Of a stretch of 64,000 bases of DNA, positions 20,895-59,887 are shown in pieces. The DNA is from Notolepis coatsorum. Taxonomy: Eukaryota > Chordata > Actinopteri > Aulopiformes > Paralepididae. The DNA lies in assembly GCA_963971535.1 (NCBI GenBank), contig OZ020598.1:96341935-96405934 (forward strand). The letters are read 5' to 3'. The translations under genes were made by a program, and so were the position numbers. Within the stretch, counting starts at the first letter, position 1. Every line of letters starts with the position of its first letter. The notes beneath the pieces were generated by a model. It ran no database searches. It was not told the origin of the DNA and saw only the letters and a list, made by a program, of their open reading frames with translations.

Positions 20895-20895
20895 A

Positions 20896-20933
20896 GTGTG
20901 GGTGACCTGGCGAAGCCAGGTTGCCACCCACAC
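20896..20933 (+). other. 5'-terminal hairpin of the HINE-like element (representative)
   Basis: GTGTGGGTGACCTGGC, loop GAA, then GCCAGGT-TGC-CACCCACAC. It is a near-perfect palindrome with a TGC bulge. The outer arm can also pair with the subterminal GTCACCCACAC near the 3' end. The same hairpin recurs at 24757, 24821, 33708, 36342, 37990, 44302 and 48808. Confidence 0.88.
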
Positions 20934-21950
20934 TATACATATCCATACTCTTTTTATTATTTATTATTTATTTATTCCACCGATTTTGCAAACACTTTGC
21001 AACACGTAAGCGTTCGCGCCCCATACACGTGAAAGGTATCAAAACGAGCGGCTTGCCTATGGCAACACCGGTCTCCGAACTCGTAAAGTTTCACCGCACC
21101 GTCTGGCTACGAATCGACTTTAAACGGTAAAATATCGGTCCCATTGGGAATGCATTGCATTTTAGAGTGTAGCAGCTGAAATAATCTTTTTCCCCCTACC
21201 TTGGGTGAATTGCGAGTGTGATCTCAATTTTGGACGTAGAAATAAAACAAACACATCAAAACGATGACACGGCTGTCAACCCGCTCACAAAAGAAAAATA
21301 AATGGAATTGGACATTTCTATCTCAACTGACGACCATTTGTTTGAAGGTTCTCCTCCCCATTGACCGCCATGCAATCGCACTCTAGAAATCACATTTTTC
21401 ACACTATTTTTTAGCCTTCTGTTCCGATCGCCGAAGGAGTGCCACAATATCGCACGAATGTCACAATATCGCGCACAACCCTTCGCCTACTCGTTGTAGT
21501 GCTCATGTGCGCGTCACAACGCTTCATCTCTTATAGTTTTCTTTTAATCAACAATGCAGTCATGCATCTGCCTCCATAGAAATGCATTGGATAGAAAATA
21601 TGCAAGTCATAGTGATTGCTTCACCTGTGTGGCTCATGGCTCACTCATGATTGGTTCAGCTGTGTGGCTCGTGGCTGAGCTGCCAATGACATCATCCACT
21701 TAACCCATCATTGGCCATCACTGTGTTGCACTACTGAATTGCTGACAGCGCCCTCTGTCTTGTGGGTTGTGTCATTGTACTCAGTAGGGATATCCTCTTT
21801 CATTTTTCATTGGTCCATGTTGACCACCTTTCATTGGTCGATGTTGACCACTCCCCCGATCCTTAGACCACGCCCCCTTAGGCCACACCCCCTCAGTGTA
21901 TCTCTTGAACCGTTTGTCGTAGAGACTTGCGGATTGTGCCATTGTACTCG

Positions 21951-24548
21951 GTGTAATAGTGTAATAGTGTGTAATAGTGTAATAGTGTAATAGTGTGTAA
22001 TAGTGTAATAGTGTGTAATAGTGTAATAGTGTAATAGTGTGTAATAGTGTAATAGTGTGTAATAGTGTAATAGTGTAATAGTGTGTAATAGTGTAATAGT
22101 GTGTAATAGTGTAATAGTGTGTAATAGTGTAATATTGTGTAATAGTGTAATAGTGTAATAGTGTGTAATAGTGTAATAGTGTAATAGTGTGTAATAGTGT
22201 AATAGTGTATAATAGTGTGTAATAGTGTAATAGTGTAATAGTGTGTAATAGTGTGTAATAGTGTAATAGTGTGTAATAGTGTAATAGTGTGTAATAGTGT
22301 AATAGTGTAATAGTGTAATAGTGTGTAATAGTGTAATATTGTGTAATAGTGTAATAGTGTAATAGTGTGTAATAGTGTGTAATAGTGTAATAGTGTGTAA
22401 TAGTGTGTAATAGTGTAATAGTGTGTAATAGTGTGTAATAGTGTAATAGTGTGTAATAGTGTAATAGTGTGTAATAGTGTAATAGTGTGTAATAGTGTAA
22501 TAGTGTGTAATAGTGTAATAGTGTAATAGTGTGTAATAGTGTAATAGTGTAATAGTGTAATAGTGTGTAATAGTGTAATAGTGTGTAATAGTGTAATAGT
22601 GTAATAGTGTGTAATAGTGTAATAGTGTGTAATAGTGTAATAGTGTAATAGTGTGTAATATTGTGTAATAGTGTAATAGTGTAATAGTGTGTAATAGTGT
22701 AATAGTGTAATAGTGTGTAATAGTGTAATAGTGTATAATAGTGTGTAATAGTGTAATAGTGTGTAATAGTGTAATAGTGTAATAGTGTGTAATAGTGTGT
22801 AATAGTGTAATAGTGTGTAATAGTGTAATAGTGTGTAATAGTGTAATAGTGTGTAATAGTGTAATAGTGTAATAGTGTGTAATAGTGTAATAGTGTAATA
22901 GTGTAATAGTGTGTAATAGTGTAATAGTGTAATAGTGTAATAGTGTGTAATAGTGTGTAATAGTGTGTAATAGTGTAATAGTGTGTAATAGTGTGTAATA
23001 GTGTAATAGTGTGTAATAGTGTAATAGTGTGTAATAGTGTAATAGTGTGTAATAGTGTAATAGTGTAATAGTGTGTAATAGTGTAATAGTGTGTAATAGT
23101 GTAATAGTGTAATAGTGTGTAATAGTGTAATATTGTGTAATAGTGTAATAGTGTAATAGTGTGTAATAGTGTAATAGTGTGTAATAGTGTAATAGTGTAA
23201 TAGTGTGTAATAGTGTGTAATAGTGTGTAATAGTGTAATAGTGTGTAATAGTGTAATAGTGTAATAGTGTGTAATAGTGTAATAGTGTGTAATAGTGTAA
23301 TAGTGTAATAGTGTAATAGTGTGTAATAGTGTGTAATAGTGTAATAGTGTGTAATAGTGTGTAATAGTGTAATAGTGTGTAATAGTGTAATAGTGTGTAA
23401 TAGTGTAATAGTGTGTAATAGTGTAATAGAGTGTAATAGTGTGTAATAGTGTAATAGTGTAATAGTGTGTAATAGTGTAATAGTGTAATAGTGTGTAATA
23501 GTGTAATAGTGTAATAGTGTGTAATAGTGTAATAGTGTAATAGTGTGTAATAGTGTAATAGTGTAATAGTGTGTAATAGTGTGTAATAGTGTAATAGCGT
23601 GTAATAGTGTAATAGCGTGTAATAGTGTAATAGTGTGTAATAGTGTAATAGTGTGTAATAGTGTAATAGTGTGTAATAGTGTAATAGTGTGTAATAGTGT
23701 AATAGTGTAATAGTGTGTAATAGTGTAATATTGTGTAATAGTGTAATAGTGTAATAGTGTAATAGTGTAATAGTGTGTAATAGTGTAATAGTGTGTAATA
23801 GTGTAATAGTGTGTAATAGTGTGTAATAGTGTAATAGTGTGTAATAGTGTAATAGTGTGTAATAGTGTAATAGTGTAATAGTGTGTAATGGTGTAATAGT
23901 GTAATAGTGTGTAATAGTGTAATAGTGTAATAGTGTAATAGTGTAATAGTGTGTAATAGTGTAATAGTGTAATAGTGTGTAATAGTGTAATAGTGTGTAA
24001 TAGTGTAATAGTGTGTAATAGTGTAATAGTGTAATAGTGTGTAATAGTGTAATAGTGTGTAATAGTGTAATAGTGTAATAGTGTGTAATAGTGTAATAGT
24101 GTGTAATAGTGTAATAGTGTGTAATAGTGTAATAGTGTAATAGTGTGTAATAGTGTAATAGTGTGTAATAGTGTAATAGTGTAATAGTGTGTAATAGTGT
24201 AATAGTGTGTAATAGTGTGTAATAGTGTAATAGTGTAATAGTGTAATAGTGTGTAATAGTGTAATAGTGTAATAGTGTGTAATAGTGTAATAGTGTAATA
24301 GTGTGTAATAGTGTAATAGTGTAATAGTGTAATAGTGTGTAATAGTGTGTAATAGTGTAATAGTGTGTAATAGTGTGTAATAGTGTAATAGTGTGTAATA
24401 GTGTAATAGTGTAATAGTGTGTAATAGTGTAATAGTGTGTAATAGTGTGTAATAGTGTTATAGTGTAATAGTGTGTAATCGTGTAATAGTGTGTAATAGT
24501 GTGTAATAGTGTGTAATAGTGTAATAGTGTGTAATAGTGTAATAGTGT
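21951..24548 (+). repeat. TAATAGTG 8/10-bp satellite array (copy 1)
   Basis: An interleaved series of the 8-mer TAATAGTG and the 10-mer TGTAATAGTG, most often alternating to give an 18-bp period. Private variants in order: TATAATAG, AATATTG, AATAGAG (about 23424), two AATAGCG (about 23595-23615), TAATGG (23886), TTATAG and TAATCG (24476). The minus strand lacks stops in all frames, giving a Thr/Leu/His/Tyr open frame of over 900 codons that is not a gene. Confidence 0.97.
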
Positions 24549-58665: not shown

Positions 58666-59177
58666 CGGAAAAATCCGAAAACTCGAAAAAATCCCAAAAC
58701 TCGGAAAAATCTAAAATCCGAAAAAGTTCAAAAACTCGGAAAAATCCCAAAACCCGAAAACTCGGAAAAATCCGAAAACTCGGAAAAATCTAAAAAGTTC
58801 CAAAACTCCGAAAAATCCCAAAACTCGGAAAAATCCGAAAACTCGGAAACATCAAAAATCCGAAAAAGTTCAAAAACTCGGAAAAGTCCGAAAATCCGAA
58901 AACTCGGAAAAATCCAAAAACTCGGAAAATTCCGAAAACTCGGAAACATCAAAAATCCGAAAAAGTTCAAAAACTGAAAAGTCCGAAAACCCAAAAACTC
59001 GGAAAAATCCAAAAACTCGGAAACATCAAAAATCCGAAAAAGTTCAAAAACTCTGAAAAGTCCGAAAACCCAAAAACTCGGAAAAATCCGAAAACTCGGA
59101 AACATCAAAAATCCGAAAAAGTTCAAAAACTCGGAAAAGTCCGAAAACCCGAACACCCGAAAAAAATCCAAAAACTC
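58666..59177 (+). repeat. CGGAAA-type array (copy 11)
   Basis: Same unit types and same start position relative to the D triple as in copies 4-6, but fused at its 3' end to TAATAGTG units. Confidence 0.92.
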
Positions 59178-59617
59178 TGTAATAGTGTAATAGTGTGTAA
59201 TAGTGTAATAGTGTAATAGTGTGTAATAGTGTAATAGTGTGTAATAGTGTAATAGTGTGTAATAGTGTAATAGTGTGTAATAGTGTAATAGTGTAATAGT
59301 GTGTAATAGTGTAATAGTGTAATAGTGTGTAATAGTGTAATAGTGTGTAATAGTGTAATAGTGTGTAATAGTGTAATAGTGTGTAATAGTGTGTAATAGT
59401 GTAATAGTGTGTACTAGTGTGTAATAGTGTGTAATAGTGTAATAGTGTAATAGTGTGTAATAGTGTAATAGTGTGTAATAGATCATTTAGTTTGATCTGT
59501 GTGTAATAGTGTGTAATAGTGTAATAGTGTGTACTAGTGTGTAATAGTGTGTAATAGTGTAATAGTGTAATAGTGTGTAATAGTGTAATAGTGTGTAATA
59601 GATCATTTAGTTTGATC
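59178..59617 (+). repeat. TAATAGTG array with duplicated stem-loop segment (copy 11)
   Basis: A first run of 8/10-bp units ends at GATCATTTAGTTTGATC (about 59481-59497). About 100 bp of array, with the same GTGTACTAG variant, and a second GATCATTTAGTTTGATC (about 59600-59617) follow. This is a tandem duplication of about 118 bp. Confidence 0.9.
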
Positions 59618-59887
59618 TGCCACTTCTTGGACACATGGTGCCATGAGAAAGGGTGAGTATTAAATAATACAACACGAAAGGGAGTTTGTGTTATAGTTAA
59701 TAAAATCACATCTGTAGTCATCTTCAAATGGTCTATGTTGACCACTCCCCCGATCCTTAGGCCGCGCCCCCTTTTTGTATCCTTTGAACCGTTTGTCATA
59801 GAGACTCGCGAGAGACCCTCTCCCCCGTTGGCCGGCGGTGCACAGGCGTCACCCACACTTTCACAATTTCCCCCGTGAATTGTCTAG

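Follow-up and report, generated by a model that had tools for sequence, protein, structure and literature searches.

The 64,000-nucleotide window analyzed here, a stretch of contig C43 in the 3.42-Gb assembly of Notolepis coatsorum, carries between positions 20895 and 59887 a chain of about 39 kb, in which eleven elements, all on the plus strand, lie within a (TTA)n tract. Judged by their subterminal inverted repeats (subTIRs), insertion target, core repeats and helper, these elements are HINEs, the non-autonomous members of the Helentron group, and not canonical Helitrons. Our preferred reading, to which we give a probability of roughly 0.78, is that HINEs make up the chain family, and that a Helentron copied them by a rolling-circle mechanism, reinserted them at T-T sites beside or inside their relatives and moved some of them together as read-through composites. 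An original prediction, made from the sequence of the stretch, had proposed a HINE family organized as a multi-copy chain and mobilized by a Rep/helicase element elsewhere. The family assignment was borne out by the anatomy, the T-T insertion and a partner sharing both ends in the same assembly. The chain does contain head-to-tail joints but is also nested and composite, and the partner does exist and share both ends, with some autonomous copies lying in or beside chains and not only elsewhere.

To define the elements, we examined their termini in the window. Eight canonical 5′ ends, consisting of AGTGTGGG plus a 40-nt hairpin, were found in the chain, all on the plus strand, starting with AGTG in seven cases and with GGTG at 37989; a search of both strands of the window with up to 2 mismatches placed the 5′ motif at 26 places, compared with 3.4 expected. 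The hairpin (stretch 20893-20940) gave a z of -8.2, with 0 of 200 shuffles equally stable, which confirmed the predicted fixed 5′ end with its hairpin. Its cap (20908-20918), here as in 5′ ends genome-wide, is GGCGAAGCC, and the motif GCGAAGC is known to form a DNA mini-hairpin of exceptional stability. At the other side, ten 3′ ends, GAATTGTCTAG, all on the plus strand, finish with the predicted CTAG. The subTIR AGTGTGGGTGAC stands at +1 and its inverse near the 3′ end; it is asymmetric, and its two copies share the 11 or more identical bp by which HINEs are recognized. The inverted 12-mer stops 31 bp before the 3′ end in nine of ten copies and 28 bp before it in the tenth, in agreement with the predicted inverted counterpart. 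A GC-rich 3′ stem-loop had also been claimed, and here only the loop proved GC-rich, the stem (ACAATT.CC/GGAATTGT) being mostly AT. Two copies were folded: the stem was predicted at 24705-24755 with an energy no better than that of shuffles (z 0.39), and at the 3′ end of the last copy (59842-59889) a different fold was preferred (z -0.34). Since the 3′-end pattern used for genome searches fixes both stem arms, 3′-end counts are not independent support for this palindrome.

Between the ends, the eleven left modules differ by 0-7 mismatches over about 825 bp, and the central tandem arrays, present as predicted, consist of GTGTAATA or AAAAATCCG. TT lies upstream of seven of the eight 5′ ends, and T lies downstream of all ten 3′ ends (TT in seven), in keeping with the T stated on both sides of the insertions. 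The chain is without coding capacity: no long frame was seen by eye outside the repeats, and among eight chain frames scanned against Pfam, seven were without any family and one array frame gave a match below cut-off (LED_rpt, 30.8 of 59 bits). The AGTG start and the T-T sites fail the Helitron1 definition (5′ TC, A-T insertion); only the 3′ CTAG fits CTRR.

The units follow one another in the order U1-TT-U2 stub (62 bp)-U3-U2 remainder-TT-U4-TT-U5-U6-U7-TT-U8-TT-U9-U10-U11. The left host flank (20790..20894), which we presume to resemble the 3′ tail of a long interspersed nuclear element (LINE), ends in (TTA)n (...TTATTATT), and the chain is inserted after ...TTATT; the right host flank (59888..60002) is likewise (TTA)n. 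When the flanks were joined by eye, the TTA phase was kept only if two Ts were duplicated or borne by the element. U1 (20895..24753) is a complete HINE with left module, GTGTAATA array and right module; its 5′ terminal hairpin (20895..20934) reads AGTGTGGGTGACCTGGCGAAGCCAGGTTGCCACCCACACT with a GAA loop, and its 3′ end (24711..24753) contains the subterminal inverted repeat GTCACCCACACT, the palindrome and the CTAG terminus. A TT spacer (24754..24755) then forms the head-to-tail joint CTAG-TT-AGTG, likewise found at 33705, 36339, 44299 and 48805. The U2 five-prime stub (24756..24817) is broken by U3 (24820..28697), a complete HINE with 1 mismatch and 23 gap bases relative to U1, and the U2 remainder continues at 28698..33704. 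The break lies at T-T (24818-24819), where a T-rich stretch follows the 5′ hairpin, 62 bp inside the U2 5′ end. Because U3 interrupts U2 at T-T, nested insertion is seen directly in the window.

Further along, U4 (33707..36338) has a AAAAATCCG array and other internal sequence, and matches U6 (37989..40620), complete apart from its first base, exactly over 2632 bases. Between them U5 (36341..37988) keeps only the 5′ part, namely the first 1.65 kb of the U4/U6 sequence, and stops in its array against U6, abutting it within one base of the U6 5′ end. U8 (44301..48804) and U9 (48807..51794) are complete HINEs, whereas U7 (40621..44298), U10 (51795..57357) and U11 (57358..59887) are 5′-less; U7 has the border TATATTCTTATTATCTATATTCTCAG, repeated in U10, the joints U6|U7 and U9|U10 having 664 exact bases in common, and U11 carries mixed arrays and forms the right end of the chain. 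The predicted count of eleven same-strand copies was thus right as to number and strand, but one copy is split by the nested one, one is truncated at 36341-37988, and three (40621, 51795 and 57358) are 5′-less.

The termini were then searched throughout the assembly with exact patterns, for which the reversed-pattern controls were all 0; older copies are missed by such patterns, and repeated blocks mean that copies are not independent events. This whole-assembly search, of the kind the original prediction had proposed, detected 1710 5′ ends and 2429 3′ ends, and 2137 3′ ends followed by TT (by a pattern that begins one base later than the 3′-end pattern). Head-to-tail CTAG-TT-AGTG joints numbered 364, stub joints 263 and 5′-less joints 407, of which at least one is really a head-to-tail joint with a deletion. 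The same TT was broken in 87 of the first 100 listed stub joints, and in 59 of 65 when the 35 joints in seven repeated C6 blocks were left out (counts by eye). Clustering was pronounced: of the 100 3′ ends that head the list, every one on C1, 64 fell into 12 clusters, each confined to one strand, and 36 stood alone, compared with a random mean of 3.7 clustered. On C6, 29 joints lay within 159 kb. An exact-match scan for the termini in viral and prokaryotic contig collections, which may not include the genome of the window itself, gave 0 matches. Some individual clusters have an internal regularity of their own, one array of 3′ ends (L032) having a period of 6.0 kb, about 2.8 kb of it other DNA, and another (L031) a period of 7.2 kb; elsewhere (L033) elements are spaced by (TTA)n of about 50-60 bp, and at C1:73392400-73392650 a GTGTAATA array continues into a long (TTA)n that holds a further element. 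In some copies (L068, L069, L011 and L022), no more than the final ~45-55 bp of the family 3′ end remain, preceded by other sequence, which suggests capture of other DNA.

A helper with the expected domains is present in the assembly. PF14214 gave 65 matches in the fish's own assembly and none in 14 control genomes. One locus, C1:73366533-73386756 (about 20.2 kb), was read through in adjacent pieces. The helper begins with the same 5′ hairpin as the HINEs, behind two 64-bp stubs; its left ~1.05 kb corresponds to the HINE left module, with 97.5-98.1% identity to U8, U9 and U11; it contains both array types; and over its last 162-179 bp the identity with U4 and U8 is 97.8-99.4%, the threshold for a shared end being at least 80% over the last 60 bp. 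A stretch of 111 bp near the right end of U8 is 100% identical to the helper. Its frame of 2771 amino acids contains DUF6570, Helitron_like_N (PF14214), PIF1 (PF05970) and Exo_endo_phos (PF03372), the last three above their cut-offs in this single protein when the last 2332 residues were scanned against Pfam; a separate Pfam scan of the N-terminal 439 residues returned no family. The protein further matched PIF1 chains and Helraiser 7lcc, and an HIH motif is present. Thus, the Helentron that the original prediction had called for, encoding Rep, helicase and endonuclease and sharing the 3′ terminus, was recovered. Since both ends and the left module are shared, the HINEs are most simply, and probably, internal-deletion derivatives of this ~20-kb Helentron. 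A Copia-type RVT_2 frame of 614 residues and an RVT_1 frame also lie at the helper locus on the minus strand; we regarded these as cargo and discounted them as helper functions.

A 335-residue Rep segment had 75 matches in the assembly, 47 of them full length at 100% (rounded) and 5 at 99%; 22 of the 47 had the query's own score, and 42 of the 52 copies at 99-100% lay inside frames of at least 2703 residues. The 47 full-length matches at 100% suggest a recent burst, and the near-identical full-length copies are probably those that mobilize the chain elements. Among the joints listed on C1, C4, C5, C6 and C7 up to 153.02 Mb, five of ten near-identical Rep copies lay at most 50 kb from a joint, all five on the strand of that joint.

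We next examined the insertion targets. In loci L001-L050, which partly overlap, all 65 5′ ends whose flank was long enough had TT upstream; L001-L030 are the best matches to the window 5′ end and so not a random sample. Of these 65 ends, 26 abut a 3′ end and 18 lie behind a stub; upstream of the others is (TTA)n (9) or other host DNA (12). Of the 17 loci L031-L047, taken around 3′ ends, 11 contain a single complete copy within host DNA, and the remaining six show no exact 5′ end, arrays or unpaired ends, or a stub. The 11 copies have the same ends as the chain, with TT on the left in 11/11 and on the right in 10/11 (TG at L041). One site, L044 in a minisatellite, has a readable empty form, GTTC becoming GTT-element-TTC with only TT extra. 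The single insertions therefore bore out the predicted ends and targets; moreover, the outcomes that would have spoken against the prediction, namely other ends, target duplications or no end-sharing rolling-circle element, were not found at these 11 copies, the one readable empty site and the helper locus. At these sites a TT duplication and element-borne Ts look alike, and Thomas et al. (2014; PMC4067079) likewise could not assign the flanking Ts. The left flanks of L005, L009, L042 and L043 place insertions in or beside (TTA) runs. Ahead of these runs lies sequence that we take to resemble the 3′ tail of a LINE or short interspersed nuclear element (SINE), and the helper endonuclease may favor such LINE/SINE-like tails.

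These data can be drawn together in a model. The helper Rep/helicase/endonuclease would start copying an element at its 5′ hairpin, continue as far as the 3′ subterminal repeat and CTAG end, and insert it at T-T with no target duplication beyond the ambiguous TT. New copies would often insert at the TT adjoining the 3′ end of an older one, or form at that point as concatemers, which would produce CTAG-TT-AGTG; others would enter the T-rich run ~62 bp inside an older 5′ end, leaving a stub ahead and a 5′-less remainder behind. Read-through of internal 3′ ends would move several units as one composite and spread 5′-less joints, and local duplication would afterwards lengthen the chains. Of this, the ends, the joints, the helper and the recurrence are observed, and the enzymatic action, the order of events and the respective shares of insertion, concatemer formation and unequal exchange are inferred. 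More tentatively, the element may bear its own landing pad, the T-rich run after CTCTTTTTATT ~62 bp inside the 5′ end, which resembles the (TTA)n targets; repeated entry at the same T-T, composite export and satellite-like chains would then follow from programmed self-targeting, with the autonomous element still active.

Nesting predicts stubs and remainders in balance, and this was found around U3 in the window (1/1) and at C1:44.681 Mb (1/1). Among ten C1 stub groups taken by eye from the lists, a 5′-less unit directly follows the copy in five (44.674, 44.681, 73.366, 95.066 and 129.956 Mb), the genome baseline being 407+78 of 2429 3′ ends followed by a 5′-less unit. Composite movement is inferred from the chimeric joint CTAG|TATAT[A/T]CTTATTATC..., which occurs at 78 places on 27 contigs: a 5′-less unit should not move alone, and the recurrence may reflect transport with a neighbor. 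An uninterrupted U7/U10 border would read as the 5′ hairpin, at most 30 bases, and then CTTATTATCTATATTCTCAG. The TATATT form of the chimeric border was found at 2 of the 78 places, both in the window (U7 and U10), and these two copies are therefore most simply explained if the chain was duplicated internally. Three 5′-less units stand behind a complete copy in (TTA)n at C1:95.05 Mb, where no stub lies ahead of that copy.

Several observations weigh against the preferred reading. No transposition was observed, the data being a single assembly. In the C1 stub groups, a head-to-tail joint follows the copy in two of ten (129.961 and 236.03 Mb) and neither joint type in three (1.600, 1.617 and 195.92 Mb). 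L050 has a stub without a remainder, as do the five-stub blocks at C6:120.09-120.15 Mb, where the first remainder listed is at 120.172 Mb, and at C1:44.674 Mb one stub precedes four remainders. Two apparent cases of two stubs with two remainders were dropped, one at C1:73.37 Mb, where the second remainder is present, because a further 5′ end in (TTA)n intervenes, and one at C1:129.956 Mb because of a third, damaged stub (2 intact and 1 damaged versus 2 remainders). Furthermore, the repeated C6 blocks and the restriction of the TATATT border to U7/U10 indicate that local duplication is also at work, and some clusters carry non-family DNA in their repeat (L032). The stub-rich units without remainders fit the chimera proposal made for the FoHeli elements of Fusarium oxysporum, by which copying halts at the first 3′ end.

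Such duplication raises the alternative that the chains grew like satellites, one or few HINEs being multiplied in place by unequal exchange with transposition minor. The 2632 exact bases shared by U4 and U6, the base that U7 and U10 alone share among 78 places, the five-stub block at C6:120 Mb repeated seven times with recurring spacings, and the near-constant period of some clusters (e.g., L031 and L032) all agree with it. Nevertheless, neighboring units in the window differ in arrays and interiors, 364 joints lie at exact termini, and such joints occur on many contigs, the same chimeric joint on 27, which makes it unlikely as the principal process. Nor can a simple head-to-tail multimer alone account for the chain, because neighboring units are different and U3 is nested.

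Still less probable is that each chain entered (TTA)n in one shot, as a multimer copied round a joined-end circle. Joined ends of a unit that carries two Ts would yield CTAG-TT-AGTG, U4-U5-U6 resemble 2.6 turns of one template, both chain ends lie in one (TTA)n tract, and circular Helitron2 intermediates have been inferred by polymerase chain reaction (PMC5148889); a single template, however, cannot yield the differing U1, U4, U8 and U9, nor the nested U3. That long repeats were wrongly strung together during assembly seems scarcely credible: a 200-N gap (20515-20714) does lie 180 bp left of the chain and near-identical units are prone to collapse, but the parts of the chain that were read contain no N, and joints of these types turn up again and again on chromosome-size contigs.

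Outside the chain, window positions 3-14939 hold a 14.9-kb array of the 20-bp unit CAGTGGAGAGCAACAAGGAA with 93% matches; beside it, at ~14960-16170, reverse-transcriptase-like sequence was recognized by eye. An inverted repeat of 256 nt (16266-16521 and 16723-16978; 98% complementary, 201 nt apart) carries 10-bp minisatellites on both arms.

To our knowledge, Helitron2/Helentron transposition is known mainly from sequence. One genome here holds thousands of HINE ends together with dozens of near-identical full-length Rep/helicase/endonuclease frames, and its joints record nesting, head-to-tail joining and probably read-through. With such material it can be tested by what route rolling-circle elements build tandem chains and give rise to satellite DNA, and whether a Helentron of this kind is still mobile.

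We finally compared the family with known systems. HINE/DINE-1 elements (PMC4067079) similarly have one subTIR close to the 5′ end and another some tens of bp in from the 3′ end, tandem repeats in their interior, T-rich targets that leave Ts on either side without target modification, and a helper sharing the termini. Their 3′ palindrome has a candidate counterpart here, no more stable than shuffles in the two copies folded (z 0.39 and -0.34), and, unlike them, the present family has its 5′ repeat within a 40-nt terminal hairpin, a CTAG 3′ end and 29 joints over 159 kb on C6. According to the same source, canonical Helitrons have 5′ TC, insert between A and T and encode proteins without endonuclease, and tandem clusters, although described for Helitrons of bats and the silkworm, are no more than a suggestion for Helentrons. 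Cg_HINE of the Pacific oyster (PMC7492417) likewise has left and right modules around a tandem-repeat core and TT targets; no autonomous partner could be related to it there, whereas here the partner shares both ends. FoHeli, a Helitron2 of Fusarium oxysporum (PMC5148889), resembles our family in a 5′ hairpin with a GAA loop (FoHeli1 and FoHeli2), a 3′ inverted repeat inside the end (38-51 bp there) and one copy 2 bp from another. It differs in the ATTTT 3′ end and in proteins that have no endonuclease domain. Self-insertion was proposed there as the source of multiple 5′ termini, of which some are reported along with a single nested case, compared with hundreds of stub and 5′-less joints here. 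For Helraiser, a bat Helitron1 (PMC4778049), 3′ read-through moved downstream DNA in ~11.7% of assay events, a process akin to the read-through proposed here, and CTAG-3′ also occurs in a natural relative. Clusters of Helitrons in tandem, as well as self-insertion and end bypass, have already been published (PMC4067079; PMC5148889), and the listings of our literature search, for which most subscription papers were out of reach, showed neither a HINE chain from a fish nor a ladder of stubs at one fixed 5′ site. What is apparently new here is how large the phenomenon is, that the landing site inside the element is fixed, and that the genome also contains dozens of near-identical helper frames.

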